IMG/VR virus record: IMGVR_UViG_3300002514_005018
Span: 10,374-46,093 of that record
DNA from: a virus
Length of the DNA: 35,720 nucleotides
Direction: 5' to 3' (one strand)
The notes beneath the pieces were generated by a model. That model did not search any database, was not told where the DNA came from, and saw nothing but the letters and a program-made list of their open reading frames with translations. Position numbers and translations under genes: made by a program. Below are positions 1 through 23,248 of this stretch, piece by piece. Every line of letters starts with the position of its first letter. The first letter of the stretch is position 1.

Positions 1-204
1 ACAACAGAGAAAGATATCCAACTTGTTCATGACCTTGAATTTTGGGGAAGATGTCTATTCTCTGGACTCAATTTTTGTACGTTGGAAACTCCCTTGATAA
101 AATATAGAATTAATAGGAATGGTCTAACTTTTGGTAGATCTTCAGAAATGAGAATGTCTCATCAGATGTTATTAAAACGATGGCGAGAGAAAGGATTAAT
201 ATGA
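1..204 (+). CDS. C-terminal end of a probable GT2 family glycosyltransferase (5' truncated)
   Basis: Frame 1 is open from the first base to the TGA at 202-204, giving 67 residues. The stretch resembles the C-terminal part of GT2 (GT-A fold) glycosyltransferases: a DLEFWGRCLFSG segment recalls the ED-x-DLW-x-RL-x-x-x-G region, and a PLIKYRIN segment recalls the conserved P-L-x-x-YR that follows it. Its stop overlaps the next start as ATGA (201-204), which supports a real translated gene. If correct it would transfer a sugar, perhaps to a capsule-like or phage glycan, and it fits with the sugar genes at the other end of the window. Family assignment rests only on this tail; the catalytic DxD region lies outside the window. 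Confidence 0.6.
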   Translation, partial: TTEKDIQLVHDLEFWGRCLFSGLNFCTLETPLIKYRINRNGLTFGRSSEMRMSHQMLLKRWREKGLI

Positions 205-1424
205 GTAAAAGTAAGAGTAAGAGTGGGAAGCAAGTCGGACCTAGACCTTGGACTGAACACGAAGAAATAATGCTATATAGTATGCGAGAGGATGGAATTC
301 CGTATCGTATAATCTCTTCAGAGTTGTTTGATCGTTCTGTTAGTGCCTGTGAGAAGAAGTATAGAAATACTATTTGGGTTAATAAACCTTTTTATGATAC
401 GACTAGACATACTATCAAAGAGGGTTTGAAAAAGGCTTATCTTGAGAGACTTGCGAATCTCAGAGACAAAAGAATCTCTGTTTCTAAAGTAAAGGCAGAT
501 ATTATAGGAGATAGGATAGTTAGAGCGGTAGAGGCTCTCCCAAGGGTTCCTGCCCCTAGAAAATCAAAGCGTAAACATGTTAAAAAAGACCATATCGAAG
601 ATGTCGGACTAATTCTCAGTGACTGTCATATAGGACAGGAATTCTCCTTGGAAGAAACAGGGGGATTAGGAGAATACAATTTAGAAATTTTTAAACAGAG
701 AGTTGAGAATCTCCAATACGCTGCAACAGATATTGTTGAACTTCATTCTAAACTGTATGCTTTAGATACGTTGCACCTGTTTTGTTTGGGAGATATCGTT
801 GCTGGCATGAATGACGTTGGAGCATGGTCTCCCATTTACATCAATATGCCTATATTTGAACAGTTCGTTGAAGGAGTTGAAGCTCTTGCTGGCATGATAG
901 ATCATTGGTTAAGTATTTTTAAGGAGATCAAATTTTACGGTGTATATGGTAATCATGGTAGAGCTTCTAAACGAGGTTCAGAAAAAGAATACGTCAATTG
1001 GGATTTTATGACTTATCAGTTTTTGATGAGTAGATTCAAAAATAATCCAAGAGTTAAATTTAATGTTCCTAAAACATGGTGGATATTTGAAGAAATAAGA
1101 AGTCACAAATTTCTTGTGGTTCATGGAGACGATATGAGAGGAATGTCCTGGCCAGCAAAAAGTCTGTTGGATTTCGAACAGAAGATGATGGCTATTTTAA
1201 GAGATATTCCAGATTATACTCTAGCAGGACATTATCATAGTGCTGCTGAATTATCTACAAATCATGGTAAAGTATTACTAAATGGAAGTTTTGTTGGCGG
1301 CGATGTTTTCTCTTTGAAAAATCTTCAAAGATCATCTATCCCTGAACAGAAAATGTTTGGGATACACGATAGACGAGGCATTACATGGACTTACGACCTT
1401 AACCTTAATATAGACAGAAGATAA
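201..1424 (+). CDS. Metallophosphoesterase with N-terminal SANT/Myb-like domain
   Basis: A 407-residue calcineurin-like phosphoesterase. The ordered metal-ligand motifs are visible: SDCHIG near residue 141, LGDIV near 196, GNHGR near 250, VVHGDD near 306 and GHYH near 343. Residues 15-65 look like a SANT/Myb helix-turn-helix (PWTEHEE, then a second helix and a KKYRN segment), so the enzyme is probably brought to DNA. The substrate is unknown; nuclease or phosphodiesterase activity is possible. An ATG at 180 is also in frame, but the ATG at 201 has AAGGA at 191-195 and overlaps the upstream stop as ATGA, so 201 is preferred. No second subunit such as SbcC is adjacent, which argues against a simple SbcCD pair. 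Confidence 0.85.
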   Translation: MSKSKSKSGKQVGPRPWTEHEEIMLYSMREDGIPYRIISSELFDRSVSACEKKYRNTIWVNKPFYDTTRHTIKEGLKKAYLERLANLRDKRISVSKVKADIIGDRIVRAVEALPRVPAPRKSKRKHVKKDHIEDVGLILSDCHIGQEFSLEETGGLGEYNLEIFKQRVENLQYAATDIVELHSKLYALDTLHLFCLGDIVAGMNDVGAWSPIYINMPIFEQFVEGVEALAGMIDHWLSIFKEIKFYGVYGNHGRASKRGSEKEYVNWDFMTYQFLMSRFKNNPRVKFNVPKTWWIFEEIRSHKFLVVHGDDMRGMSWPAKSLLDFEQKMMAILRDIPDYTLAGHYHSAAELSTNHGKVLLNGSFVGGDVFSLKNLQRSSIPEQKMFGIHDRRGITWTYDLNLNIDRR

Positions 1425-1434
1425 AAGGAGTTTG

Positions 1435-1459
1435 AACTTATTTGTTGAAATAATAAGTT
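1435..1459 (+). promoter_or_regulatory. 8-bp inverted repeat just upstream of the zinc-ribbon gene
   Basis: AACTTATT (1435-1442) and AATAAGTT (1452-1459) are perfect inverted repeats around a 9-base loop. The hairpin lies between a ribosome-site-like AAAGGAG (1424-1430) and the GGAG (1460-1463) that serves the start at 1470. It could shape access to that ribosome site. It has no U tract, so it is not a terminator. It could be chance in AT-rich DNA. Confidence 0.35.
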
Positions 1460-1469
1460 GGAGTTTAAT

Positions 1470-1946
1470 ATGATAGATTTACCGCAATGGTTAGAGGATA
1501 AGATTCAAGAAATAGGGATGGAATGCCCTAATTGTGGGAAAAACATAAAGTTGGAGTCCATTGTAGCTATCGGAGTCAAAGAATATGATGAATCCAAGGA
1601 TAAAAAAAAGAAAGATCGGATTCCATATCTTGTTATGGAGCATATATGCGAGTATTGCCACAAGACTTATGGGTTTGATATAACCGAATGCGATGTCAAA
1701 AAATTCGTATTCGAGATGATGGAAAAATATGGACTAATAGACACCGATCAAGATAAACTGGAATTCGTGGAAGAGAAAAAACCAAAAGTAAAAAAGAATG
1801 CAAAAAGCGGTATTTCGCAAAAAGAAGTTGATAATTTTACGAATATGATGAAAGATTGCAAGAATTGGACAGATGTAATGGAAAAGGCCGGTATTTCTAG
1901 AGAAGACATGGAAAGGTATACAAAAGACAGTGCGAAAGGTAAGTGA
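1470..1946 (+). CDS. Zinc-ribbon protein of unknown function
   Basis: A 158-residue protein with a four-cysteine zinc ribbon in its N-terminal half: CPNC near residues 20-23 and CEYC near 60-63, separated by a lysine-rich insert. The C-terminal half (about 90-158) is charged and lysine-rich. I do not recognise the family. A TTG at 1458 is in frame, but GGAG at 1460-1463 sits six bases before the ATG at 1470, so that start is used here. The end overlaps the next gene by 17 bases, suggesting coupled translation. Confidence 0.75.
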   Translation: MIDLPQWLEDKIQEIGMECPNCGKNIKLESIVAIGVKEYDESKDKKKKDRIPYLVMEHICEYCHKTYGFDITECDVKKFVFEMMEKYGLIDTDQDKLEFVEEKKPKVKKNAKSGISQKEVDNFTNMMKDCKNWTDVMEKAGISREDMERYTKDSAKGK

Positions 1947-3003
1947 TTATAAGTTGTCTAAATTTCTTATAGAGTCAGCATGCGAAGGTGCTGGGTGTCC
2001 ATTCGTGGATCTCAATATAAGATTTACAGAAGATGGACAGATGGGAGATGTCCTTTCTAACGGTTCTATTTGCGTATCAGATGCTAAGAATTGGTTTGAT
2101 ATAAATAGTAAAATAGTATTGATATATTTCACTCATTTCGAGCAGATCTGTGGTAGTAGCTTGGTAATGGATCACGCCGAACTAGAAAGAGTTCTTGATC
2201 TTTGGAGATCATTTTTATTATTTCTATGCAACGACGAAGGAGCATTAGATTGTTTTAAAAATGATGAAGAATTTGTATCAAGATTATATCAATTCCCTGT
2301 CGTTTGGTTGTTAATGAAAGATATTATTTGTCCAGCGTATGAAGTCCAACTCGACAATATAGCTATCGCAGTCGTAGAGGATACGTCTTCTTGTGATGTC
2401 TCTGAATATCTTGACAAAGAAGTTTTGGATATCGAGAACAGTTTTATTGGTTTAAACGGATGCATAGGATATAAACCAGTAAGAGATGCTTTTCTTTTTA
2501 TCACTGTTTTAGAGGCTCATGATTTAAATGCTTATAAAATCATAAAAGAAATAATGTCATCAGAGTTGCAGACTAAGATTTGTGGAGCAATGAAATTAGT
2601 ATATGGTGACGATAAAAAGGTTAACGACTTCCTGATGATACTTTTGACATATGTTGGTATAGAAAATAAGATAGAACATTTGGTTGTTGATTCGGTCAAA
2701 GAAGCTAGTAGTGAGAGTATGATCAAAGAGGCTCAGTTCATGAACAATCTGACTAACTCGTTTTGGTTCTTTGGTCTGATAGAAAAAATGTTAGAACCGT
2801 CTAGAGGAACGGATTGGTCTGTTTATGAAGGGCTTAATCCTTGGTTCCAAGAGATACAAGATCGCATTGAAGTTGAACAAAAGAAGGCTGGTAGAGACGG
2901 AGTTACATATGAGTCTTTGCTCAGAGTAAAGTCGGGTGAAAACACGAAAGAAGAGAATAATACCATACTAGAAAAAAATCTAGGCTCTGATAGAGTTTGG
3001 TAG
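1930..3003 (+). CDS. Hypothetical protein, 357 residues
   Basis: A long open frame with phage-like codon use and no recognised domain. It is acidic, appears largely helical and has several cysteines near the N-terminus (CEGAGC). The C-terminal 40 residues are charged and probably disordered. The start is uncertain. GTG at 1930 is used but has no well-spaced ribosome site; TTG at 1954 is an alternative, with AAAGG at 1935-1939 rather far upstream. The gene overlaps its 5' neighbour and is followed closely by two tiny genes, so it is probably in one transcript with them. No transmembrane segment was seen. Confidence 0.7.
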   Translation: MRKVSDYKLSKFLIESACEGAGCPFVDLNIRFTEDGQMGDVLSNGSICVSDAKNWFDINSKIVLIYFTHFEQICGSSLVMDHAELERVLDLWRSFLLFLCNDEGALDCFKNDEEFVSRLYQFPVVWLLMKDIICPAYEVQLDNIAIAVVEDTSSCDVSEYLDKEVLDIENSFIGLNGCIGYKPVRDAFLFITVLEAHDLNAYKIIKEIMSSELQTKICGAMKLVYGDDKKVNDFLMILLTYVGIENKIEHLVVDSVKEASSESMIKEAQFMNNLTNSFWFFGLIEKMLEPSRGTDWSVYEGLNPWFQEIQDRIEVEQKKAGRDGVTYESLLRVKSGENTKEENNTILEKNLGSDRVW

Positions 3004-3014
3004 AGGAAGGCAAA

Positions 3015-3200
3015 ATGAAAAACGCAGATACGATACAGATTTTACGTAGAATACTTGAAAAATTTAACGTTGCTAGGAGATTGCTTATCGATGGCAAGGA
3101 GATCCCAGCATATAAAAAGTTTCAAGGAGTTTACGATAACCTTGAAAAATTGGTTAGTTTATTAGAAGAAGAAGAAGATGAAAATAATAAAGACAAGTGA
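3015..3200 (+). CDS. Small hypothetical protein, 61 residues
   Basis: The start at 3015 has GAGGAAGG at 3003-3010. An in-frame TTG at 2997 is less likely. The protein is helical and ends in a run of glutamates followed by a lysine-containing tail. No family is recognised. It overlaps the next gene by 23 bases, and that gene starts inside its glutamate-coding run, which is purine-rich and can act as a ribosome site. Confidence 0.6.
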   Translation: MKNADTIQILRRILEKFNVARRLLIDGKEIPAYKKFQGVYDNLEKLVSLLEEEEDENNKDK

Positions 3201-3378
3201 ATACATTAAAATAGCCTCAGGCTGGGACATATATCCAAATTTCTGGAAAAGCAGAGATATAGGACAGCAAGGTCATGTATTGTTCAAATCACCTGAACTA
3301 CCTGAGACTGAAGACGAAATTAAGAAGCTTTGGAAACCGAAGAACACTAGAAAGAATAAAAATAGAAGTAACGCATAA
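3178..3378 (+). CDS. Small hypothetical protein, 66 residues
   Basis: A short basic protein with tryptophans (GWDIYPNFWK) and a lysine/arginine/asparagine-rich tail. The ATG at 3178 is preceded by a GAAGAAGAAG stretch within the previous gene, so translation is probably coupled. No family is recognised. It ends two bases before the helicase start. Confidence 0.55.
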   Translation: MKIIKTSEYIKIASGWDIYPNFWKSRDIGQQGHVLFKSPELPETEDEIKKLWKPKNTRKNKNRSNA

Positions 3379-3380
3379 AT

Positions 3381-6287
3381 ATGTCTGAAGAAATATCTTT
3401 AATAATTACTAATACCACTACGTTCGTGCAGGGTAGACTCAAGTCTGAAGTTTATCAAGGACTTAAAAGAACTTTGGGATATATGCCCGAAGATGCTTTT
3501 CATAAAATTCAGCGAATACAGTTGGACCCTGATATTGAAAATAAGCCTTGGCTTAAAGAGTATGATGGTCATGTAACTACAGTTTGTTATAACAGTGCAA
3601 AATGTAAATGTGCTGTTAAAAAACAAGGAACTCATTTCCCAACTGGTCTAGCAAGTAAAGCAATAGCTTATTTCAAAAGCCAATATATGTCATGTAGGGT
3701 ATATGACAAAAGAGAGAAGGTTAGCAAATCTCTTCCGCTTACAATGGATACGGGAGAGTTTGAAGATAGAGAATATCAAACAAACGCCATTAATAAATCT
3801 TGTAATGTAGAGAGGGGAGTTATCCAAGCGGCTACAGGCAGCGGAAAATGTATCAATGAAAATTCTTTGTGTTTATTTGAAGATGGACTCATGTCTTTTA
3901 ATGAAATAATTGAAGAAAGCGATTTAATTTTTAATGATAGCTATGCTCCAATTCAAAAACACGTTATAACAAACATGCGAAATAATGGTTGGGATAAAAC
4001 TAGTCATTTATATAAAAATGGCATTAGCGATAATATTAAAATAAAAACAAAAATTGGATTCGAGTTAGAAGGAACTCCTAATCACAGAATAAGAGTCCTT
4101 TCGTCTGAATATCCTAATATAGCGTGGAAAAAATTAAAAGATATAAAAAACGGTGATAATGTTCTTTTCATGAAAGGAACTGATCACTTTGGGTCAAATG
4201 ATATTCTTTCTGAGGATGATGCTTTTTGGTTTGGACTTTTAGTTGGCGATGGATGCTTGACATCTAAAAATCGTATAGCTCTTTCGACACAAGATGAGCA
4301 TATTGTTGATTTTGCAAAAAAATATTTAGAAAGCAAAAAATTAAAATATAGTATATATAAAGATAAGAGAAGAGAGAGATTAGTTTCTATAAATGTTTTT
4401 AATAATTCATATAAAAATGATATTGTTAAATTAGGATATAAAGACGTATATTCCTATGAAAAGGATATACCTTTAATCGTTAGAAAATCTCCTAAAAAAA
4501 TTGTTGCTTCATTCATTAGAGGATTATATGAAGCAGACGGTTTTTGTGCTTTTGAGAAAAGTAGAGTAAATTTAAGCATAGGATTGTCAAGCGAAAATTT
4601 AATTAACCAGTTGCAATTGATGTTATTGAATTTTGGAATAATATCTCACAAAAGAGTTAAAAAAACGACACATAGAGATTCTTATATATTGTCTGTTTAC
4701 AATAAGAATGTTAAATTATTTTTAGAACTGATTGGTCTGGATAAAAATGGTTATAAGTATAGCAATGCTATTAAAGGACTTAAGGGATTGTCTGATTTTG
4801 AAAATAGTAACATTGATGTGATGCCATGCGTTAATTTTTATGTATATTCGTTATTAAAAGAATTTAAAAAATTCAACAACTTGAGTAAGATTAAAAAAAC
4901 TTTGGAAGAATTTGGTTTAAAATATCAGACTTTACGTTCATGGAGCGGTAATTGTGCGTGGAGAAAACCTAGTAGGTATAGATTTAAATTATTTTTAAAC
5001 TGGGCTAATAGTGTTTATTCTGATATGCGAGAAAGTGAGTTTGATTCAGAGTATTGTTTGATTAGGCGAGTATTATCCGTTTTAGAGATTATATCTTCTG
5101 ATTCAATATTTTATGACGAAATAACAACAATTGAAGAATCAGTTAGTAAGACTTATGATTTTGTTGTTCCTGAAAGTCATAGCTTTCTTGCTCAAGGAAT
5201 GATTAATCATAACACCTTCATAGGGGCTGGCATTATTGCTCAACTAAGCGTTAGCCCATTTATTTTTTATGTCACATCAAAGGATCTTTTAAGACAGGCT
5301 CAAGATGAATTGCAGCGTTTTATTTCCTATAACAAATCGCCTCTAGAAGTAGGGATTATAGGAGATGGGAAGTGCAACATAAGAGATGTAAATATTATGA
5401 CCATACAGACTGCTGTTAGAGCTTGCGGCATGAAGTATAAAAAGTTCGACAGCGAATCAAAAATGGTTAAGGAAAAAGGCGTTTCTGAGCAGAATAAGAC
5501 AGAGATCAAAGAACTTATTACATCTGCAAAGGGAATGATATTTGACGAATGTCAACATGTAAGGTCAGATTCATGTCAGGTTATTTCTAACATGTCATTG
5601 AGTTGCAGATATCGTTATGGTATGTCAGCAACTCCATTCAGAGACGCTGGTGACGACATATTAATAGAAGCGTGTTTTGGGAGGACTATTTGTAATATTA
5701 CTGCATCTGATTTGATTAGGCAGAATTATCTTGTAAAGCCAGATATTTATTTTGTCCCTATGTCTAATATGAGAGGTAAAGGATTTGGGACATATGCGAC
5801 AGCTTACAAAGAGGGTATAGTAAATAATCCGGCTAGAAACGATATAATTGTTCAAGTGGCTAAGCAAATGAAGGATAATGGTAGAGTCATTCTTGTCCTT
5901 TGTACACAGATTGCACATGGGAAACGATTAGAGGAACTTATCCCTGATAGCGTTTTTATTCATGGAAAGCATTCATCTAAAGTTAGAAAGGCTCACTTGG
6001 ATAAAGTTAGAGCAAGAGACGCATCTGTTACAATCGCTAGTACAATTTTCGATGAAGGCGTAGATGTAAAGCCGTTAGATACTTTGATTTTAGCTGGGTC
6101 TGGAAAATCTAAAACTCGTGCTTTACAGCGTGTAGGTAGAGTTCTTAGAAAATCACCTGGCAAAGAAGAAGCAACAGTTATAGATTTTATGGATAATTGT
6201 AAATACATGATGGCTCATAGTCAAACGAGAAAAAGAATATATCAAACAGAACCAGAATTTACTATCGATGAATTGAAAATAAAATGA
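3381..6287 (+). CDS. UvsW/XPB-like SF2 DNA helicase interrupted by an intein
   Basis: The precursor is 968 residues. Removing the 455-residue intein leaves 513, close to the size of phage T4 UvsW. Superfamily 2 motifs are visible: REYQTNAI (Q-like), ATGSGK with T after the intein (motif I), DECQH (II), SATPF (III), a DEGVD motif V and QRVGRVLR (VI). UvsW-type helicases remodel branched DNA and help move from origin-dependent to recombination-dependent replication; that role here is inferred. The first 120 residues form a separate N-terminal domain with several cysteines. The Walker A lysine and threonine are separated by the intein, so the unspliced precursor should be inactive. The stop overlaps the next start as ATGA. 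Confidence 0.9.
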   Translation: MSEEISLIITNTTTFVQGRLKSEVYQGLKRTLGYMPEDAFHKIQRIQLDPDIENKPWLKEYDGHVTTVCYNSAKCKCAVKKQGTHFPTGLASKAIAYFKSQYMSCRVYDKREKVSKSLPLTMDTGEFEDREYQTNAINKSCNVERGVIQAATGSGKCINENSLCLFEDGLMSFNEIIEESDLIFNDSYAPIQKHVITNMRNNGWDKTSHLYKNGISDNIKIKTKIGFELEGTPNHRIRVLSSEYPNIAWKKLKDIKNGDNVLFMKGTDHFGSNDILSEDDAFWFGLLVGDGCLTSKNRIALSTQDEHIVDFAKKYLESKKLKYSIYKDKRRERLVSINVFNNSYKNDIVKLGYKDVYSYEKDIPLIVRKSPKKIVASFIRGLYEADGFCAFEKSRVNLSIGLSSENLINQLQLMLLNFGIISHKRVKKTTHRDSYILSVYNKNVKLFLELIGLDKNGYKYSNAIKGLKGLSDFENSNIDVMPCVNFYVYSLLKEFKKFNNLSKIKKTLEEFGLKYQTLRSWSGNCAWRKPSRYRFKLFLNWANSVYSDMRESEFDSEYCLIRRVLSVLEIISSDSIFYDEITTIEESVSKTYDFVVPESHSFLAQGMINHNTFIGAGIIAQLSVSPFIFYVTSKDLLRQAQDELQRFISYNKSPLEVGIIGDGKCNIRDVNIMTIQTAVRACGMKYKKFDSESKMVKEKGVSEQNKTEIKELITSAKGMIFDECQHVRSDSCQVISNMSLSCRYRYGMSATPFRDAGDDILIEACFGRTICNITASDLIRQNYLVKPDIYFVPMSNMRGKGFGTYATAYKEGIVNNPARNDIIVQVAKQMKDNGRVILVLCTQIAHGKRLEELIPDSVFIHGKHSSKVRKAHLDKVRARDASVTIASTIFDEGVDVKPLDTLILAGSGKSKTRALQRVGRVLRKSPGKEEATVIDFMDNCKYMMAHSQTRKRIYQTEPEFTIDELKIK
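3849..5213 (+). mobile_element. Intein with LAGLIDADG homing endonuclease in the helicase Walker A motif
   Basis: This in-frame 455-residue insertion starts with cysteine directly after GSGK and ends with INHN before threonine. Block A is at the N-terminal cysteine, block B carries GTPNHR, block F is seen as TYDFVVPESHSF, and block G ends with His-Asn. Two LAGLIDADG-type motifs, GLLVGDGCL and FIRGLYEADGF, indicate an endonuclease in the middle, so the element may be able to home. The +1 residue is threonine, an accepted splicing nucleophile. Boundaries follow from rejoining the helicase P-loop as GSGKT. Confidence 0.92.
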
Positions 6288-8250: not shown

Positions 8251-8758
8251 TAAAGACAGAAAAATAACGAACGAAAGAATCAAAAGTAAGCAAGTATTTT
8301 TGATTTTAGAGAATGGAAATAAGAGGGGAGTAGTTTCTAAGTATGAGGCATTAAATTGTTCTCGTGAAGCTGGTTTGGATCTTGTCCTTGTCTCGTCTCA
8401 GGGGGATGATAAGCCTCCAATATGCAAGATAATGGATTATGGCAAAGTTAGGTACGAAGAGAATAAGAAAAGGTCAAAAAAGAAGCAAACGGTCACTAAA
8501 GAGGTCCATCTTCGTAACGGTTTGGGTATAGATATTCATGATCTACAGACCAAGCATAGGCAAATCAAAAAGTTTATTGAAAAGAAGAATAAAGTCAAAT
8601 ATATATTCTCTGTCCGAGGAAGACAGAAAAGAGATATGCAAGAAGCACTAAAAAGATGCAATGAGAATATCTCGGAATTTGATGACATTGCTGTATGGAG
8701 TCCTCCTAAAATTGCTGGAGGTTCAATTGTTGTAGTGCTATCTCCAAAAAGTGGATAA
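8246..8758 (+). CDS. infC: Translation initiation factor IF-3
   Basis: The 170-residue product matches both IF3 domains and has normal family length. The N-terminal domain includes ITNERIKSKQV, a GVVSKYEAL segment, EAGLDLVLVS and the signature PPICKIMDYGK. A lysine-rich linker follows. The C-terminal domain has VHLRNG, QTKHRQIKKFIE, VRGRQ and a terminal VVVLSPK. IF3 binds the 30S subunit, keeps it apart from 50S and favours canonical start codons and initiator tRNA. A TTG at 8300 gives only 152 residues and would cut off the conserved first strand, so AUU 8246 is chosen. The basic residues expected to contact 16S rRNA are largely kept. Possible roles are preferential translation of phage mRNA or relaxed start choice; both are inference. 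Confidence 0.93.
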   Translation: MSKDRKITNERIKSKQVFLILENGNKRGVVSKYEALNCSREAGLDLVLVSSQGDDKPPICKIMDYGKVRYEENKKRSKKKQTVTKEVHLRNGLGIDIHDLQTKHRQIKKFIEKKNKVKYIFSVRGRQKRDMQEALKRCNENISEFDDIAVWSPPKIAGGSIVVVLSPKSG

Positions 8759-8825: not shown

Positions 8826-10265
8826 ATGCCAGAAGCAGAAAACAGCACTAGCGAAAGCCAGAAGATTCTAGAAACGATGGCGACTCCAGATTTCACTAAT
8901 GAGCTTACCGCTCTAATGAAAATTCGCGCTCCAGTCGTTTTCCTTACATGTCGAGAAGAAAAACGAATGTTGAAATACCTACAGTATCTTGTTGTTACGA
9001 GAGGTTTTAGAGCTTCAACTTGGGATTGTTATACTGGAATGTCTAATCTATTAACGGGAGAATTAGACAAAACAGTTTCAGATGATGTTTTAGACCCAGA
9101 TATGGCTTTGCATTATATTATACAAGACGCAAAGTCAGATTCGCAGAAGTCAGATGGTTACGAATCTCAGAGTATTAATGGCAAGATCTATGTCATGTTA
9201 GATTTTTATAATTTTCTTGACAATCCAGACACAGAGCGTAGAATTAAGACTTTCGCTCAGATCGATTCCATGACTATGATTATTATTACTGGTCATTCTT
9301 TGTCAATCCCACCTGGTTTAAATAATCTTTTCAGCGTTTTAGATTTCCCATATCCTAATAAGAACGAAATTAAAGGTACTGTCAAATCTCTACTTAACGC
9401 TGTTGGCAAAGAGTCTGTCAAGTTCGAAAAATCTTTGATGAAACAGTTCAAAGATAATGAGCATGAGATCATCGGTTCTGTCAATGGGCTAACTTTGACT
9501 GAAGCTCAAAAGGCTTTGTCGAAGTCAGTTGTTGTCCACAGAGGATTTGATACTAACGCTATTCTAGGCGAAAAGAAACAATATATTCGTCAACGCGGAA
9601 CTTTAGAATTCTACGAACCAGATTTGACGATGGATGATGTCGGAGGTCTTGCTAATATGCGTTCATGGTTAGAGCGTAGAAAGGCAGTATTTGATCCTAA
9701 AGCAAGAGAATTTGGTCTTCCTGCTTTGAAAGGAATTCTTGCAGTTGGAGTCCCAGGTGGTGGTAAGTCTTTGATCGCTAAAGCATCTGCTGCTTTTTAT
9801 GGTATTCCTCTTTTGAAACTTGATTTTGGAACGCTATTCCGAAGTCACGTTGGAGAGTCGGAAGAAACAACTAGAGCCGCTATCCAGTTGGCAGAGGCTT
9901 TAGCTCCGTGCGTATCTTTTGAGACAGAGATAAAAACATGCGATGGATCTATAATTGTAGGAAAAGAGTTTAATCAAACAAATAATAAGTTTAATATATC
10001 CGTTGGAACAGATATAGCAGTATTAGATGATCCTATTGATATCCCATCATTTGATATGGAAAAAGATGAAATTGTTAATTCTAAACTGAAAGCGATCATA
10101 CGAAGAAAAGTTAGGACTGGAAAGAAAGTTTATAAAGTTACTTTATCGAACGGATCGACAATTAAGGTTTCTGAAGATCATAAATTTTTGGTTTTAAATA
10201 ATGATAAAAAAGAATGGAAAAAAATGAAGGATATCAGTGAAAAAGATAAAATTATAACTCTATAG
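8826..10265 (+). CDS. Ycf46-like AAA+ ATPase, N-terminal part fused to split-intein N half
   Basis: The first 361 residues (8826-9908) are the N-extein. They comprise an N-terminal regulatory domain, then LEFYEPD, DDVGG and Walker A GVPGGGKS near residue 309, followed by a VGESEE segment. The order and wording match the Ycf46-type AAA ATPases of cyanobacteria and plastids. Function there is poorly known; a remodelling or regulatory role is likely. After LAP the sequence turns into an intein N half (118 residues) ending in a stop. Walker B and the arginine finger are encoded separately at 11290-11874. The spliced protein would be 556 residues, joining LAP to CCLWIDEID. ATP hydrolysis should therefore depend on trans-splicing. 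AAAGG at 8815-8819 serves the ATG. Confidence 0.88.
   Translation: MPEAENSTSESQKILETMATPDFTNELTALMKIRAPVVFLTCREEKRMLKYLQYLVVTRGFRASTWDCYTGMSNLLTGELDKTVSDDVLDPDMALHYIIQDAKSDSQKSDGYESQSINGKIYVMLDFYNFLDNPDTERRIKTFAQIDSMTMIIITGHSLSIPPGLNNLFSVLDFPYPNKNEIKGTVKSLLNAVGKESVKFEKSLMKQFKDNEHEIIGSVNGLTLTEAQKALSKSVVVHRGFDTNAILGEKKQYIRQRGTLEFYEPDLTMDDVGGLANMRSWLERRKAVFDPKAREFGLPALKGILAVGVPGGGKSLIAKASAAFYGIPLLKLDFGTLFRSHVGESEETTRAAIQLAEALAPCVSFETEIKTCDGSIIVGKEFNQTNNKFNISVGTDIAVLDDPIDIPSFDMEKDEIVNSKLKAIIRRKVRTGKKVYKVTLSNGSTIKVSEDHKFLVLNNDKKEWKKMKDISEKDKIITL
9909..10262 (+). mobile_element. Split intein, N-terminal half (in AAA+ ATPase)
   Basis: 118 residues begin with cysteine after LAP. Block A is CVSFETEIKTCDG. 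Block B is seen as NGSTIKVSEDHKF, with the conserved histidine but serine where threonine is common. The fragment stops shortly after block B, exactly where natural split inteins break. Its last 20 or so residues are lysine-rich (KKEWKKMKD). The matching C half is at 11176-11289. Confidence 0.9.
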
Positions 10266-10290
10266 CGTTAGTATACGAGGAGGTAGAGTT

Positions 10291-11166
10291 GTGGTTAATA
10301 AGGTTTGTTTAAATTGCGGAGTAATTTTTAGAGTTGCGAATTATAGAAAAGATACGGCAAAGTATTGTAGTCGTTCATGTAGTTCTGCTCGAAGTAGAAC
10401 CTCTAAAGAATGTAAATTTTGCAAAGAGAAATTTGAAACATGGAAATCTACATTTGATAGAACCAAGTTTTGTTCAAAAAAATGTCAACTGGCATATAAT
10501 AAAGATAGAAGTTCGAAAATTATATGTTTGAATTGCAAGGATAGTTTTGTTGTTCCTTTTTTTAAAAGAAATAGTGCTAAATTCTGTTCTAAGCGATGTC
10601 AAAGAGAGTTCACTAACAGCGATACAAAGTTGAAATGTTTTGTTTGCGGTGAAAATTTTACAAGAAAAAAGTGGGCAACTATTAATAAGAAAAATGTACA
10701 TTACTGTTCTGTAGATTGTTATCAGAAAAGATCTCCATCAACTTACGAAACATGTAGTTGCGGTAATGTTTTTAAGGTTTATGCTAGTAGAAAAAAATAT
10801 TATAAAAATTTGTATTGTTCAGTAGAATGCCGTAATAAATATGGAATTATTGGAAGGCTAACTTCTAACATTAATTTTAACAAGCAGTATCAGAAATTTG
10901 TTCGAAGCGTTAGGCATTCGTCAAAATACTACGAGTGGAGAAAAAAATGTTTAGAAAGAGATAATTATAAATGCAATATTTGTCATGGAGATAGAGGTCT
11001 TACAGTTCATCATGGAATTAAGACAATGTATGACTTTGTTAAAGAACATGGATTTAACAAGAAAAAAATATATAATGATTGTATGTTTTTTGATGTCGAT
11101 AATGGTTCAACTTTATGTAGAAAATGCCATCTAAATAAGCATTCGAATAGAAATTTGAAAGATTAG
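10291..11166 (+). CDS. HNH homing endonuclease with five zinc-finger-like repeats
   Basis: A free-standing 291-residue gene lying between the two split-intein halves. Residues 6 to about 180 contain five repeats of the form C-x2-C (C-x-C in the last) followed by Y/F-C-S-x2-C, about 35 residues apart, likely zinc-binding and DNA-binding. The C-terminal HNH nuclease starts with CNICHGDRG, has VHHGIK, then asparagine and LCRKCHLNKH. It should cut an intein-less allele of the ATPase gene and so promote homing of the locus. Start GTG 10291 has a perfect AGGAGGT (10278-10284), the strongest ribosome site in the window. Cutting specificity is inferred only from position. Confidence 0.85.
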   Translation: MVNKVCLNCGVIFRVANYRKDTAKYCSRSCSSARSRTSKECKFCKEKFETWKSTFDRTKFCSKKCQLAYNKDRSSKIICLNCKDSFVVPFFKRNSAKFCSKRCQREFTNSDTKLKCFVCGENFTRKKWATINKKNVHYCSVDCYQKRSPSTYETCSCGNVFKVYASRKKYYKNLYCSVECRNKYGIIGRLTSNINFNKQYQKFVRSVRHSSKYYEWRKKCLERDNYKCNICHGDRGLTVHHGIKTMYDFVKEHGFNKKKIYNDCMFFDVDNGSTLCRKCHLNKHSNRNLKD

Positions 11167-11175
11167 GAGAAGAAA

Positions 11176-11289
11176 ATGAATGTAGCTGAAGTTGTAAAAG
11201 TTGAAGAAGTAAATGAAATTGAATATGTTTATGATCCTTGTTGTGAATCGCCTAACAATTATGTTTCAAATGGGATAATAAGTCATAAT
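11176..11289 (+). mobile_element. Split intein, C-terminal half (in AAA+ ATPase)
   Basis: 38 residues with block F (EYVYDPCCESPNNYV) and block G (NGIISHN) followed by cysteine. The penultimate histidine and terminal asparagine are canonical. The peptide is strongly acidic (seven acidic and one basic side chain by my count), opposite to the usual basic C half of DnaE split inteins. Confidence 0.9.
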
Positions 11290-11877
11290 TGTTGTTTGTG
11301 GATTGATGAAATCGACAAGGGGTTATCTGGTACTCAATCTAGCGGTTCGACCGATGGTGGAACGACTGATAGAGTTGTGAGTACATTCCTTACATGGATG
11401 CAAGAGAAGAAAAAAGACGTTTTTGTTGTCGCAACTGCCAACGAAATAGAAAAAATTCCAACTCCGTTTTTCAGGCGTTTTGATGAAATCTTTTTCGTTG
11501 ATTTTCCCAACGTAGATGAAAGGGAAGAGATAGCTTCTGTATTGATAAGAAGATATGGTAGGGTCGCTGCAAACTTCGATCTTAAGAAGATTGCGAAGGC
11601 ATCTGACGGTTGTAGTGGATCAGAGATTGAGAAGGCAATTCATATTGGATTGTTTGAGGCTTTTGCCGATAGTAGGAGAGAGCTAACAACTAAAGATATC
11701 GTAAACGCTTTCAAAACTTTTACTCCTCAGTACAAAATGCGTCCAGCTTATTTTGATACAATGACTGAGGTTGCTCACCAACGTGGTTTCGTTTTTGCAA
11801 ACAAGGCTCCTAAAATTAAACCACAAAAAGTACAGAAGGAAGAAGACGCAATCGGTATCATTTTGGATGAAAATTGA
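11176..11877 (+). CDS. Split-intein C half fused to Ycf46-like AAA+ ATPase C-terminal part
   Basis: The first 38 residues are the intein C half and the remaining 195 (11290-11874) are the C-extein. The extein opens with Walker B CCLWIDEIDKG. It continues with DGGTTDRVVSTFLTWMQEK, sensor-1-like VVATANE and the arginine-finger segment FFRRFDEIFFVDFP, then a C-terminal lid domain. Its own ribosome site (AGGAG near 11165) and ATG show independent translation, so this is not a decayed frame. Splicing would use cysteine 11290 as the +1 nucleophile. The stop overlaps the next start as TTGA. Confidence 0.88.
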   Translation: MNVAEVVKVEEVNEIEYVYDPCCESPNNYVSNGIISHNCCLWIDEIDKGLSGTQSSGSTDGGTTDRVVSTFLTWMQEKKKDVFVVATANEIEKIPTPFFRRFDEIFFVDFPNVDEREEIASVLIRRYGRVAANFDLKKIAKASDGCSGSEIEKAIHIGLFEAFADSRRELTTKDIVNAFKTFTPQYKMRPAYFDTMTEVAHQRGFVFANKAPKIKPQKVQKEEDAIGIILDEN

Positions 11878-18264: not shown

Positions 18265-18627
18265 ATGAGATATAAGAAGACACAGGTTGTACATCAGGTA
18301 GTAAGAGATGAAGAAATTGAAGACCTAGAGTCAATTAGAAAATTGCTCGAAAATATATGCTCTTCATATATAGACATTTCTTTAGGATATCAACAGCCTA
18401 ACGCTGATATAACAACTACATGGAGCAAAGTTCGTATAGATACTGTTGGAGGGGATGATGTAGACATAAAGATATTCGCAGGCAAATACATAACAAAAAC
18501 AACAATTAAAATAGATAGAATAAAATTTATTGAAATTGTGACTGACAGATTTGGTATACTAGCAAAGAAGTCAGAAGTAACTTCATATGACTTTTTAGAT
18601 TTAAGTGAAAATAAAAATGATAAGTAA
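18265..18627 (+). CDS. Hypothetical protein, 120 residues
   Basis: The ATG at 18265 lies three bases after the previous stop, suggesting re-initiation; no clear ribosome site is seen. The protein is charged with mixed helices and strands and has no recognised motif. Its last 11 bases overlap the DNA polymerase start at 18617. Confidence 0.6.
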   Translation: MRYKKTQVVHQVVRDEEIEDLESIRKLLENICSSYIDISLGYQQPNADITTTWSKVRIDTVGGDDVDIKIFAGKYITKTTIKIDRIKFIEIVTDRFGILAKKSEVTSYDFLDLSENKNDK

Positions 18628-21403
18628 TAAAAGTTTCGTACATCTTCATGTCCATAGTGACTATTCAGAATTCGACGGTCTTGCAAGCGTCAAAAGTCTT
18701 GTAATGGCTGCAAGAAAAGGCGGTTTCCCCGCCTTAGCTTTAACAGATCATGGAAATCTTGGTGGACTAATAAAGTTCATTCAACTCTGCGAAGCTACCA
18801 AAGATAAAAACGGAGAAGATATTCCATACGACACCATCAAGCCCTTGCTTGGCGGTGAGCTTTATATGTCTGCGAGTAGGTTTAATAAGAGTTCAGAAAC
18901 TCAACCGTCAGGACAAGGCGGTAATTTCCATCTTATTTTAATCGCTCAGAATTGGAAAGGATATCAGAACCTATGCTCTCTTTCTAATTTTGCTTATACA
19001 GAAGGTTTTTACTTCGCTCCGAGAATAGATTTTGAATTACTTGCCAAACATTCAGAAGGGCTAATTTGTTCGAGTGCATGTTTAAAGGGGATTGTAAATC
19101 AAAACCTATTATATGATAAATATGATGAGGCTAAAAAAGCAGCAATGATGTTCAAAGATATTTTTGGAGACAGATTCTTCCTTGAGGTTATGTATCATGG
19201 AATACCGGCCGAGCTAAAAATCGTTCCAGAGATTTTTAAATTAAGTAAAGAATTGGATATCCCTGTTATAGCTACAAACGATGTTCATTACGTTACTCAA
19301 GATCAAGCTCTATCTCAAGAAGTTCTTACTTGCATGTCAACAAGAACGTGTTTATCTAACCCCAAAAGGTTGAGACAACCATATTCAGAATTCTATCTAA
19401 AGTCTGCTGACAAAATGCATCAGATGTTTAAAAAGAATCCTAATTGTATTACGAATACAGTTTCTATTGCAAATATGGTAGATCATGAAGATATCAAGAA
19501 AAATCTTTTTGTTAAAAGGATGAGACTTCCAGAGTTTGAAACCCCAGATGGGTTTAACAGTCCTATGGAATATCTTATAGATTTGGCAGATAAAGGGATG
19601 AAAGATCTTGGATGGGATAAAAAACCAAAATACGTAAAAGCTTTGAAAACAGAATTAGAAGATGTTCAGGTCGCAATAGACAATAATGATTATGATTTTG
19701 CTACCTATTTTTTGATCGTTTGGGATATAGTTAATTTCGCAAGAAAGAGTGGCATTTTTATGGCACCTGGTAGAGGATCGGGATATGCTTCTGTTTTACT
19801 TAGATGTTTAAAAGTCTGTTATGGTCCTCCTCCGTTTAGTGAAGATGGAGAGGGGCTTGATTTGCTCTGGGAAAGATTCCTTGCTTTCAAAACAGATGAA
19901 AAGACAGGAAAAAGAGTTTTTGCTAGACCTGGTTTTCCAGATATCGATTCGGACTTTGACTTCTTCCGTAGGGGGGAAATATATGATTATATTATTGAAA
20001 AATATGGAAGAGAAAATGTAGAAAATATAGGGACTTATATAGGTCTCAAATTAAGAATGGCTCTAACAAGAACTATTAAAGCTCTTGATATAGCTCAAGC
20101 TTTTCATAAAGGAAAGCAAGAATTTGTTTCAGAGAATGTGGCAAAAGTCGAAGAGATTTTAGGTCAGCTTCCTAAACCTCAGGGGGCTTTTATGAAAGCA
20201 AAAGATGAGGATGGGAAAGAAGTATTCATTAAAACTATAGAAGACGCTATCAAATATTGTCCTGATTTTAAATATTACATGGACAAATATCCAGATATTG
20301 TGACTCATACTAAAAATGTTCAAGGTCTTTTATCTTCGTTCTCTAAACATCCTGCTGGTATCGTAATTGCGGACGTTCCTGTACATACACTTGCTCCAGT
20401 TCGTAGGTCTAAAAAGGATCAGTATGCTTCGCAGTATGATATGAATGATTTGGAATCTATGGGTCTTATTAAAATGGATATTTTGGCTACATCTATTTTA
20501 ACGGTAATAGATCGAACTGTCAAAATGGTGAAAAGTAATTATGGGATAGATATAGACATAGAGAATTTAAGTCTTGAAGATGAACCGACATTTGAGTTGT
20601 ATCGAAAGGGGAAACTAAAGGGTGTTTTCCAATGCGAAAATGGCGGCATGCAACAGACTATGAGAGATATAGGAGTGTCTTCTTTTAACGATGTTGTTGC
20701 TGCTATTGCTCTTTATCGTCCAGGTCCGATGGGAAGTATCCCAGAATATTGTGAGAGGAAGAAAGGTTTAACTCCTGTCTCTTATTTCCATCCAACTATT
20801 GAGCCTTTTGTGAAACCTCACCTTAAAAGAACTTATGGGATATTGACATACCAAGAACAGGTGATGCAGATATGTAACTCTTTAGCTGGCATTTCTGTCA
20901 CAGATGGTTATATATTGATTAAAGGTATTGGTAAAAAGAAAGAGCATCTGATTAGTCAATATAAAGTGCAGTTCATAGATGGTTGCGTTGGGAATGGCGT
21001 TCCAGCGAATATAGCAGAGCAGTACTGGGATACATTTATAATACCGTTTGCATCTTATGGATTTAACATGTGTCTAGACGGATCTATGAGGATTAAGAAT
21101 AAAAAAACAAATAAATTTTACACAATAGAAGAGATGGAAAAAAGATTTAGAGACAATAAAAATACATCTATAGTTCTTGACAGTTATAGAAACGGAGAAA
21201 TTATCGAAGATAAGTTAGTTGATGTTTTTAAAACCGGAGAAAAAGACATATATGAGGTCGAACTTGAGAATGGAACTGTTTTAAAATGCACTTTAGATCA
21301 CAAGTTTATTTGTAAAGATGGAAAGAAGTATTCTGTTCAAGAAATAATAGATAACGATTTAGAAATAATTTGTTTTGAAGAAGGAAATAAGCTTTTGTTG
21401 TAA
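18617..21403 (+). CDS. dnaE: DnaE-type DNA polymerase III alpha, N-terminal part fused to split-intein N half
   Basis: The first 818 residues are the polymerase N-extein. The PHP domain is at the N-terminus (HLHVHSDYSEFDG, LTDHGNLGG). Polymerase motifs follow: PGRGSGYAS near 384, the catalytic FPDIDSDFD near 441, LIKMDILA near 619, GVFQCENGGMQ near 668, and ALYRPGPMGSIPEY near 700. No inserted exonuclease domain is present, so it is DnaE- rather than PolC-type. After YGFNM the sequence becomes a 110-residue intein N half ending at TAA. The C-terminal 182 extein residues are encoded at 22700-23245. The spliced enzyme would be 1000 residues. ATG 18617 is preferred over GTG 18605 because the PHP motif starts soon after. 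Confidence 0.92.
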   Translation: MISNKSFVHLHVHSDYSEFDGLASVKSLVMAARKGGFPALALTDHGNLGGLIKFIQLCEATKDKNGEDIPYDTIKPLLGGELYMSASRFNKSSETQPSGQGGNFHLILIAQNWKGYQNLCSLSNFAYTEGFYFAPRIDFELLAKHSEGLICSSACLKGIVNQNLLYDKYDEAKKAAMMFKDIFGDRFFLEVMYHGIPAELKIVPEIFKLSKELDIPVIATNDVHYVTQDQALSQEVLTCMSTRTCLSNPKRLRQPYSEFYLKSADKMHQMFKKNPNCITNTVSIANMVDHEDIKKNLFVKRMRLPEFETPDGFNSPMEYLIDLADKGMKDLGWDKKPKYVKALKTELEDVQVAIDNNDYDFATYFLIVWDIVNFARKSGIFMAPGRGSGYASVLLRCLKVCYGPPPFSEDGEGLDLLWERFLAFKTDEKTGKRVFARPGFPDIDSDFDFFRRGEIYDYIIEKYGRENVENIGTYIGLKLRMALTRTIKALDIAQAFHKGKQEFVSENVAKVEEILGQLPKPQGAFMKAKDEDGKEVFIKTIEDAIKYCPDFKYYMDKYPDIVTHTKNVQGLLSSFSKHPAGIVIADVPVHTLAPVRRSKKDQYASQYDMNDLESMGLIKMDILATSILTVIDRTVKMVKSNYGIDIDIENLSLEDEPTFELYRKGKLKGVFQCENGGMQQTMRDIGVSSFNDVVAAIALYRPGPMGSIPEYCERKKGLTPVSYFHPTIEPFVKPHLKRTYGILTYQEQVMQICNSLAGISVTDGYILIKGIGKKKEHLISQYKVQFIDGCVGNGVPANIAEQYWDTFIIPFASYGFNMCLDGSMRIKNKKTNKFYTIEEMEKRFRDNKNTSIVLDSYRNGEIIEDKLVDVFKTGEKDIYEVELENGTVLKCTLDHKFICKDGKKYSVQEIIDNDLEIICFEEGNKLLL
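21071..21400 (+). mobile_element. Split intein, N-terminal half (in DNA polymerase)
   Basis: 110 residues start with cysteine after GFNM. Block A is CLDGSMRIKN and block B is seen as NGTVLKCTLDHKF with the conserved threonine and histidine. The fragment ends shortly after block B. Its last 23 residues are acidic (VQEIIDNDLEIICFEEGN). The matching C half is at 22565-22699. Confidence 0.92.
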
Positions 21404-21438: not shown

Positions 21439-22593
21439 ATGACGAGAGTAGCTTGGAATAAAACGGTTTTAGATCATAGCAAGAAAACAATTCTTAGGAA
21501 AATGTTTTTCCAGAAGAAAACAGCAAGAGAAATCACAAAAGAGATTGGGATTTCTTACTCTGTATGTAATAGGTTATATAACAAATATAATTGGTATAAA
21601 AAGAGAGAAAGATATTATAGATATTTGTGTTATTTGGCATACAAACAGGGAATTTCAGTTGTTGATATATGTTGTATTGCTGGTTGTAATTATAGATATG
21701 CCAGTTATGTCAAACGCAAATATAAGGTTGCAACAAAAAGATTTGTTTATAACAAACGTATGACAAAAGAACTCGAAAAAAAAATAGTGTGTGATTATAT
21801 TGGAGGCATTCCTTCTAGAAAATTATCAAAAAAATATGGGTTTAAAACAGGAAAAACTGTTACTGATGTTTTACGAAAATACGGAATAAAGTTTCGTCAT
21901 CCCAGTAAAATAACTCATTACAATGAAAGTTGTTTTAAAAAAATAGATTCCCATGAAAAAGCTTATATTTTAGGATTTTTTCTAACAGACGGTTATGTGA
22001 TCAAAGATTATAAAGGTGTAGCAATTCAATTGACTATAAGTGACCGTTATATTCTTGAAAAAATGGTGAAAATATTTGGAATTTCTTCTACGGTTATAAA
22101 TATAGATTGTAGTAAAAAAAGAAAAGAATTTTCTAAATTAAGCAAGAAGGTTGCGAGGGAAAGAATGATATTCAATTCAAAAGATATGGCAAGGCTTTCT
22201 GTTTACAATCAACAGATATCGCATGATATGAGATCGTATGGATGTATTAAGGATAAGACTTATAAACTTGAATGTCCGTTAATCCCTAAAAAATATCATT
22301 CGTCTTTTTCTAGAGGCGTTTGGGACGGAGATGGAACTGTTGGAATTGCAAAGAATGGGAACATTTGGTGTCAATTTGTCACTGTTTCTGAAAAATTCGC
22401 ATATGGTTTTATTGATAGAATTAAAACTCCTTCTATTCTCGTTTTACAAAACCCGTGTAAAGATAACAAGTATACTGTGAGAGTTTCTGGTGGGAATAAG
22501 CGTACAATTAGGTTTCTTAGATGGATGTATAAAGATAAAGGAGATTTATATCTTAGGAGAAAGTATGAAAAAATCAAAGATCAAATCAATTAA
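21439..22593 (+). CDS. LAGLIDADG homing endonuclease between the DNA polymerase halves
   Basis: A free-standing 384-residue gene with AAGGAG just upstream of ATG 21439. The first 150 residues contain repeated helix-turn-helix-like segments (AREITKEIGISYSVCNRLY; a second around SRKLSKKYGF) that probably bind DNA. Two LAGLIDADG motifs follow: ILGFFLTDGYV near residue 176 and SRGVWDGDGTV near 291. It should cut intein-less dnaE alleles and spread the interrupted locus; the target is inferred from position. It overlaps the start of the polymerase C part by 29 bases. It is basic and rich in Y and K, unlike its neighbours, consistent with a selfish element. Confidence 0.88.
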   Translation: MTRVAWNKTVLDHSKKTILRKMFFQKKTAREITKEIGISYSVCNRLYNKYNWYKKRERYYRYLCYLAYKQGISVVDICCIAGCNYRYASYVKRKYKVATKRFVYNKRMTKELEKKIVCDYIGGIPSRKLSKKYGFKTGKTVTDVLRKYGIKFRHPSKITHYNESCFKKIDSHEKAYILGFFLTDGYVIKDYKGVAIQLTISDRYILEKMVKIFGISSTVINIDCSKKRKEFSKLSKKVARERMIFNSKDMARLSVYNQQISHDMRSYGCIKDKTYKLECPLIPKKYHSSFSRGVWDGDGTVGIAKNGNIWCQFVTVSEKFAYGFIDRIKTPSILVLQNPCKDNKYTVRVSGGNKRTIRFLRWMYKDKGDLYLRRKYEKIKDQIN

Positions 22594-22699
22594 AAAGATT
22601 GGTAAGAAAAAAACTTACAATTTAACGATGGAATCGGATCAACATAATTATGCTATTTATTCTGCTAGTGATGACGACAGTTTTGTTTTTAGTGCGAAT
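22565..22699 (+). mobile_element. Split intein, C-terminal half (in DNA polymerase)
   Basis: 45 residues, with nine lysines and no acidic residue in the first 20. Block F is represented by KKTYNLTMESDQHNYAIYS and block G by FVFSAN before serine. The penultimate residue is alanine where histidine is usual; other active split inteins tolerate serine there. The +1 nucleophile is serine 22700-22702. Confidence 0.9.
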
Positions 22700-23248
22700 A
22701 GTCATTCGTCCGCTTATGGTTTTACTTCTTGGATCAGTGCTTATCTGAAGGCTAATTATACGGCAGAGTTTATGGTCTGTTCTTTAGATGTGGCTAACGA
22801 AGATAAAAAGCATGATAAGATTATAGACCTTGAGCGAGATCTCAAAAAGATGAATATAAAACTTGCTGATAGAGATTTGAATAATTGCGATGTCAATTAT
22901 AAAATAGTAAGAAAAGAAGACAAGGCTAACGGAGTAGATCAGACGATAGTTTCACCTAGTTTAATGGTTAAAGGCGTTGGTCTTCCTACCGCACAAAATA
23001 TCGCAGATAATAAACCTTATAAATCTTTAAAAGAACTTGCTTCAAAAACTGATTTTAAATTAGTTAATAAAGATACAATAGCTTCGTTAGCTGAAGCTGA
23101 TTTCTTCAAAAATATGATAAAAGAACATTATAAGACAACGAATAAAAGACTCTCCAAAGGTAAACTTGTGGCTCAATTTATGGTCATTCGTAATGATTTG
23201 AAGAAGGCTGCTAAGAAGGGCGTGGAGTCTATGGACCTATTTGAATAG
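22565..23248 (+). CDS. dnaE: Split-intein C half fused to DNA polymerase III alpha C-terminal part
   Basis: Start ATG 22565 has AGGAG at 22555-22559. The first 45 residues are the intein C half. The extein begins SHSSAYGFTSWISAYLKANY, the direct continuation of the YGFNK-SHS motif of DnaE. It then covers the fingers/tHhH region with VKGVGLPTAQNI and ends in SMDLFE. That end resembles the beta-clamp-binding motif (QxxLxLF-type), so the spliced polymerase may bind a host or phage clamp; no clamp gene is in this window. The in-frame region upstream of 22565 belongs to the overlapping endonuclease gene. Confidence 0.9.
   Translation: MKKSKIKSIKKIGKKKTYNLTMESDQHNYAIYSASDDDSFVFSANSHSSAYGFTSWISAYLKANYTAEFMVCSLDVANEDKKHDKIIDLERDLKKMNIKLADRDLNNCDVNYKIVRKEDKANGVDQTIVSPSLMVKGVGLPTAQNIADNKPYKSLKELASKTDFKLVNKDTIASLAEADFFKNMIKEHYKTTNKRLSKGKLVAQFMVIRNDLKKAAKKGVESMDLFE

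Follow-up and report, generated by a model that had tools for sequence, protein, structure and literature searches.

A split intein with a free-standing HNH gene in its gap in a phage AAA+ ATPase gene, and the intein states of its relatives

Fractured phage-type genes, in which a split intein has a homing endonuclease gene in its gap, were reportedly described by Dassa et al. in 2009, in a paper said to name a new endonuclease family in its title. Here we describe an arrangement of this type in an AAA+ ATPase gene of a virus, located on a stretch of 35,720 nucleotides that we refer to as the window (positions 10,374 to 46,093 of the IMG/VR virus record IMGVR_UViG_3300002514_005018). A closely similar system is found in the PolB gene of Pseudomonas phage MIJ3, where an HNH gene lies between the halves of a split intein, and an unbroken mini-intein related to that of MIJ3 is present in Salicola phage SCTP-2 (PMC6892783). 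An out-of-frame HNH insertion that lacks splicing domains has been described as the ShiLan domain (PMC11855218). In canonical split inteins the N-terminal half (IntN) measures 100-120 amino acids (aa) and the C-terminal half (IntC) 35-50 aa (PMC13014065).

Judged from the sequence, an HNH gene has very probably fractured the intein of the window ATPase gene, the two halves would splice in trans and thus restore the ATPase, and homing is the most likely activity of the HNH protein.

Anatomy of the broken ATPase gene

The locus comprises three open reading frames (ORFs), at 8826-10265 (479 aa), 10291-11166 (291 aa, GTG start) and 11176-11877 (233 aa). The host gene is present as two ORFs with one intein half each, and a free-standing endonuclease gene lies between them. 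The features are as follows, where L068 denotes a related locus that is described below.

8826 to 9908, plus strand: N-extein of the AAA+ ATPase, 361 aa including Walker A (nucleotides 9747-9767); PHROG 8638 positions 16-375, gapless fit to uninterrupted homologues
9909 to 10262, plus strand: IntN, 118 aa (Cys1, block B with SEDH), followed by the stop codon TAG at 10263-10265; Pfam Intein_splicing 1.2e-10, NCBIfam intein_Nterm (TIGR01445) 3.8e-10, homologous to the contiguous intein of L068
10277 to 10284, plus strand: Shine-Dalgarno-like GAGGAGGT for the HNH gene, read from the sequence, preceding the GTG at 10291
10291 to 11166, plus strand: free-standing HNH endonuclease gene, 291 aa, with five Cys4-type repeats (aa 6-180) and an HNH domain (about aa 216-288); PHROG 1271 2.2e-25, Pfam HNH 0.033 (below the cut-off)
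11164 to 11169, plus strand: Shine-Dalgarno-like TAGGAG ahead of the C half (ATG at 11176), sharing bases with the HNH stop codon, read from the sequence
11176 to 11289, plus strand: IntC, 38 aa, C-terminal ...GIISHN, Cys at +1; Pfam Intein_splicing 4.8e-6, NCBIfam intein_Cterm (TIGR01443) 7.7e-4, 53% identity to the C part of the L068 intein
11290 to 11877, plus strand: C-extein of the AAA+ ATPase, 195 aa (Walker B, sensor, lid); PHROG 8638 positions 365-538, Pfam AAA 2.4e-12

Good ribosome-binding sites precede both the HNH gene and the C half, and the HNH stop codon (TAG 11164-11166) is at the same time the start of the site that serves the C half. The first-pass annotation had described three ORFs with a ribosome site and start of their own, a break between Walker A and Walker B and a joined protein of 556 residues. 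All of this was borne out: the ORFs are laid out as listed, Walker A (GVPGGGK) precedes the break whereas Walker B (WIDEID) and conserved Asn and Arg residues follow it, and the exteins add up to 556 aa (361 + 195).

By its profile matches the host gene is a phage AAA+ ATPase of the PHROG 8638 family. The AAA and PHROG 8638 profiles match both halves, and the PHROG 8638 positions covered by the two (16-375 and 365-538 of 568) are complementary. Moreover, upon joining of LAP to CCLWIDEID, as had been proposed in the first-pass annotation, the alignment to seven uninterrupted phage ATPases (from Agrobacterium, Rhizobium, Mycobacterium, Rhodobacter and Pseudomonas phages and a Streptococcus satellite) shows neither a gap nor an extra residue at the LAP/CCLWIDE join.

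The profiles and the alignment indicate that the intein halves have kept Cys1, the block B His within SEDH, the YDP block, the terminal SHN and the Cys at +1. The Pfam match of IntC is under Pfam's own cut-off, whereas both NCBIfam matches are above theirs. The lengths of the halves fall within the canonical sizes, and the gap is positioned in the endonuclease loop of the L068 homologue. The intein of the ATPase locus is, as far as its sequence can tell, a genuine canonically split intein, and trans-splicing of the halves is predicted from the conserved residues via established intein chemistry. The composition changes stepwise at the splice junctions: the G+C content of the exteins is 39.3 and 39.5%, and that of IntN, the HNH gene and IntC is 27.7, 29.1 and 28.1%, respectively, the three forming a sharply bounded AT-rich block. 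The DnaE and helicase inteins of the window display a like pattern (exteins 34-36% versus 27-30%).

Phage introns often contain HNH genes, a general observation that would favor an RNA intron with an HNH gene as the nature of the insertion. We consider this next to impossible: on both sides of the HNH gene there are protein-splicing motifs that read in frame with the exteins, and a search of the region against Rfam returned nothing even at an expect value of 1. Another explanation holds that the two halves act as separate subunits without splicing, as is the case for the genes-in-pieces NrdA in phage Aeh1, the intein halves being remnants. In line with this, a homing endonuclease gene is able to divide a functional enzyme in the absence of an intein (cited in PMC10448857), and in three relatives of the window virus DnaE is in two pieces, with no intein at the split near residue 430. 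However, all catalytic positions are retained in both intein halves, the halves can be aligned with an unbroken intein over their entire length, and the break parts Walker A from Walker B within a single ATPase fold, which makes separate subunits very unlikely.

The insertion site in relatives and the role of the HNH gene

Two alignment-driven scans and one IntC-centred scan of IMG/VR yielded 152 loci on 151 contigs. The ATPase site is empty in 150 of the 151 related contigs, namely 148 in which the exteins abut plus L079 and L105, which have insertions elsewhere. Related phages with an uninterrupted gene at the site, for which the first-pass annotation had advised to search, were thus found. 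Among them are the contigs nearest to the window, namely L105 (61% for the N part and 68% for the C part), L099 (51%) and L013 (49%). The gene order around the window ATPase is shared by L105 and L013.

At the identical junction L068 (found again as L170) carries an unbroken mini-intein of 177 aa without endonuclease. The IntN and IntC of the window align with it from end to end (38% and 53%, respectively, in tblastn segments), and the gap coincides with the short linker of this intein, where an endonuclease loop is usually found. In an intein tree of ten short sequences the two cluster with a support of 0.965. An AlphaFold model of the L068 intein was too poor for use (mean pLDDT 37, predicted local distance difference test). 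The simplest history would be the insertion of the HNH gene into a contiguous mini-intein; the reverse order, in which split halves were fused with loss of the HNH gene, is possible but less simple. Support for the original reading of the locus, a fractured AAA+ gene whose split intein has an HNH gene between its halves, comes from profile hidden Markov models (HMMs), from the gapless fit of the exteins, from the uninterrupted syntenic gene in close relatives and from the unbroken intein of L068.

The HNH protein itself contains five Cys4-type repeats (CxxC...[YF]CSxxC, the fifth with CxC) ahead of the HNH domain, in agreement with the five zinc-finger-like repeats noticed at first. The HNH motif with its zinc-binding Cys pairs is present as CNIC, VHH, N, CRKCH and KH. 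Related zinc-repeat proteins were found at 43 loci in a further scan, and a screen of 46 HNH-relative loci with ad hoc HMMs, for which the window served as positive control, revealed no detectable flanking intein. Since such relatives are common and, in the screen, had no detectable intein beside them, the HNH gene represents a common free-standing nuclease type that would have entered an intein. A search of six related records, performed without a positive control, did not find the HNH gene.

On this basis we propose the following scenario. An intein resided between Walker A and Walker B of the PHROG 8638 ATPase gene, and a free-standing HNH gene would have entered its endonuclease loop and broken it. 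The products of the locus would be the N part of the ATPase with IntN, the HNH protein, and IntC with the C part of the ATPase. The halves are expected to associate and to splice in trans via Cys1, the block B His, the terminal His-Asn and Cys+1, giving a 556-residue ATPase with the predicted junction peptide ...LAEALAPCCLWIDEIDK. Because neither half has a complete ATP site, the ATPase would be restored by splicing and be functional only thereafter. The HNH enzyme most likely cuts insertion-free alleles, upon which repair would copy the AT-rich block into them.

A variant of this scenario, to which we assign a smaller though still appreciable probability, is that the HNH gene is a second-level parasite whose target lies in intein DNA and which homes only into unbroken intein copies, the intein having spread earlier by other means. 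It would fit with the unbroken endonuclease-free intein that L068 has at this site, with the position of the gap within the intein, and with the free-standing HNH relatives that lack a detectable adjoining intein in the 46 screened loci. On the other hand, cutting of the intein-free allele would spread the full block equally well, and IntN, the HNH gene and IntC are of one composition.

Several points weigh against a fracture of the ATPase intein by the HNH gene with splicing in trans. The sample is one metagenomic contig (a virus record of 46,093 bases), and the HNH gene and IntC share a frame in which only the TAG at 11164-11166 lies between them, a weaker separation than that of the N half. 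Both points would suit a sequencing or assembly artefact, in which the intein is in reality continuous, carries the HNH domain in frame and only appears broken. This is extremely unlikely, however, considering that the frame of the N half contains 53 stops over the gap, so that a single error could not restore it, that the ribosome-binding sites are separate, and that a like arrangement is seen in the window DnaE, in the ATPase genes of L068 and L079 and in DnaE of the related genome G010 (see below). Furthermore, the HNH assignment is based on PHROG 1271, the Pfam HNH match being sub-threshold; a sequence search of the PDB with the HNH protein gave no match, and its AlphaFold model was too poor for use (mean pLDDT 56). 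No other virus with the exact combination of split and HNH gene emerged from the IntC-centred or N-half searches: the IntC-centred search of IMG/VR for other split copies returned only the contig of L068, and the single-protein search of IMG/VR with the N half returned no relatives. Likewise, blastn of the locus against phages gave no match. Finally, the direction from contiguous to split is a matter of parsimony over few sequences.

As to the neighborhood, a phage gene for the translation initiation factor IF-3 with IF3_N and IF3_C domains (window 8300-8758) is located directly upstream of the ATPase gene, and similar-looking ORFs occupy this position in L013, L068 and L105. In a related Rhizobium phage, DUF1257 and DUF2997 genes lie nearby, which is no more than a lead for the Ycf46-like identity suggested in the first-pass annotation.

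A second fractured gene and other intein states in the lineage

The DnaE gene (DNA polymerase III alpha) of the window is broken as well:

18605 to 21070, plus strand: DnaE N-extein; TIGR00594 9.5e-197
21071 to 21400, plus strand: DnaE IntN, 110 aa, followed by a stop (ORF 18605-21403); TIGR01445 9.9e-9, 58% and 54% identity to the unbroken DnaE inteins of two relatives
21439 to 22593, plus strand: free-standing LAGLIDADG endonuclease gene with a helix-turn-helix-like N-terminus; Pfam LAGLIDADG_3 5.9e-11
22565 to 22699, plus strand: DnaE IntC, 45 aa, ending in SAN, Ser at +1, start inside the end of the LAGLIDADG gene; alignment to the unbroken inteins of G001 and G010
22700 to 23248, plus strand: DnaE C-extein; TIGR00594 1e-19

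The relative with 58% identity is G010 (the record of L104), whose unbroken intein occupies the same site (FNL/SHS); that with 54% is G001 (the record of L013), where the intein lies two codons further on. Together with the window intein they form a group with a tree support of 0.997. The window intein is at FNM/SHS and that of L093 (G001) at FNRAH/SCS, as if the insertion site had shifted. In the record of L105 DnaE is uninterrupted, and a search of IMG/VR with the DnaE LAGLIDADG protein found no relatives. The ATPase and DnaE inteins of the window are dissimilar (24% identity). Two nucleases of unrelated families would thus appear to have fractured two dissimilar inteins in one genome. The charges of the halves are of opposite polarity (ATPase IntN +3, with +11 in its last 60 aa, and IntC -6; DnaE IntN -4 and IntC +4), which would disfavor cross-pairing.

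Further states are found among the relatives. L068, L079 and L105 have a further intein in the same ATPase, located at Walker A and atypically split with an IntN of 24 aa:

L068, 4998-8806: Walker A split-intein locus with a NUMOD3 / TnsA-like PD-(D/E)XK gene in the gap
L079, 2699-5783: Walker A split-intein locus with a NUMOD3 / TnsA-like PD-(D/E)XK gene in the gap
L105, 4956-7113: Walker A split-intein locus, halves 52 bases apart, no nuclease between them

In G010 (L179, 2-3213) a split intein interrupts DnaE at SHAAG, and the gap contains a zinc-finger-bearing ORF (272-1132) that is probably a nuclease. A second, unbroken intein is present further along this DnaE. The helicase intein of L013 and the DnaE intein of G003, in turn, stay continuous around an endonuclease-like ORF of about 321 aa in another frame:

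L013, 764-1729: nested ORF in ORF 3-2570, clear LAGLIDADG (Pfam 3.3e-24)
L098 (G003), 513-1478, minus strand: nested ORF in ORF 1-3618, weak match only

Over these nested ORFs the intein frame is open for some 320 codons, a length over which 6-18 stops would be expected; with the inner protein fixed, the outer frame was open in 0.04% (L013) and 0% (G003) of synonymous-codon permutations.

Taken together, there is in our estimation about an even chance that free-standing endonuclease genes of unrelated families have repeatedly broken contiguous inteins in this lineage (HNH in the ATPase and LAGLIDADG in the DnaE of the window; in relatives, PD-(D/E)XK and one more gene that probably encodes a nuclease), that a split can outlast its nuclease, as in L105, and that the steps of split-intein birth are preserved.

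Some other arrangements were observed in the same genes. In G001, G002 and G003 DnaE consists of two genes, split without an intein near residue 430 of the window protein, which is fused there; the two genes of G001 are separated by one for a ClpP-like protease (L093, 3242-3889, minus strand). The window helicase (3849-5213) contains a conventional contiguous intein with an in-frame LAGLIDADG domain.

Comparison with known systems

The origin of split inteins has so far been inferred mostly from isolated cases. With empty, unbroken and endonuclease-containing split states found at identical sites in the same genes, and a nuclease-free split elsewhere, this origin becomes directly testable. In addition, two natural split inteins of opposite charge polarity in one genome, which are expected not to cross-react, could serve as protein-ligation tools.

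The endonucleases in the window, HNH and LAGLIDADG, differ from the new family to which the title of Dassa et al. reportedly refers. The atypically split inteins AceL TerL and VidaL (PMC13014065) resemble those at Walker A in L068, L079 and L105 with their 24-aa IntN, whereas the ATPase intein of the window is split at the canonical endonuclease loop and not near its N-terminus. With the ShiLan domain, the nested ORFs of the relatives share an endonuclease gene in another frame of a host gene that stays open; the ShiLan domain, however, has no splicing domains, whereas the nested ORFs of L013 and G003 lie within inteins.

The PolB gene of MIJ3 is alike in that the host gene forms two ORFs, with a split intein and a free-standing HNH gene between them, and in that an unbroken relative of the intein exists elsewhere. 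The rarity that the first-pass annotation had claimed for an HNH enzyme in this role does not hold in view of MIJ3 PolB (PMC6892783), and HNH enzymes with zinc repeats commonly occur in phages as free-standing genes. The arrangement type is already known; what is new is the host gene, an AAA+ ATPase instead of PolB, together with unusually informative relatives: in the case of MIJ3 one gene is compared between two phages, whereas here two genes are broken in a single genome and their empty and unbroken states are found in relatives.

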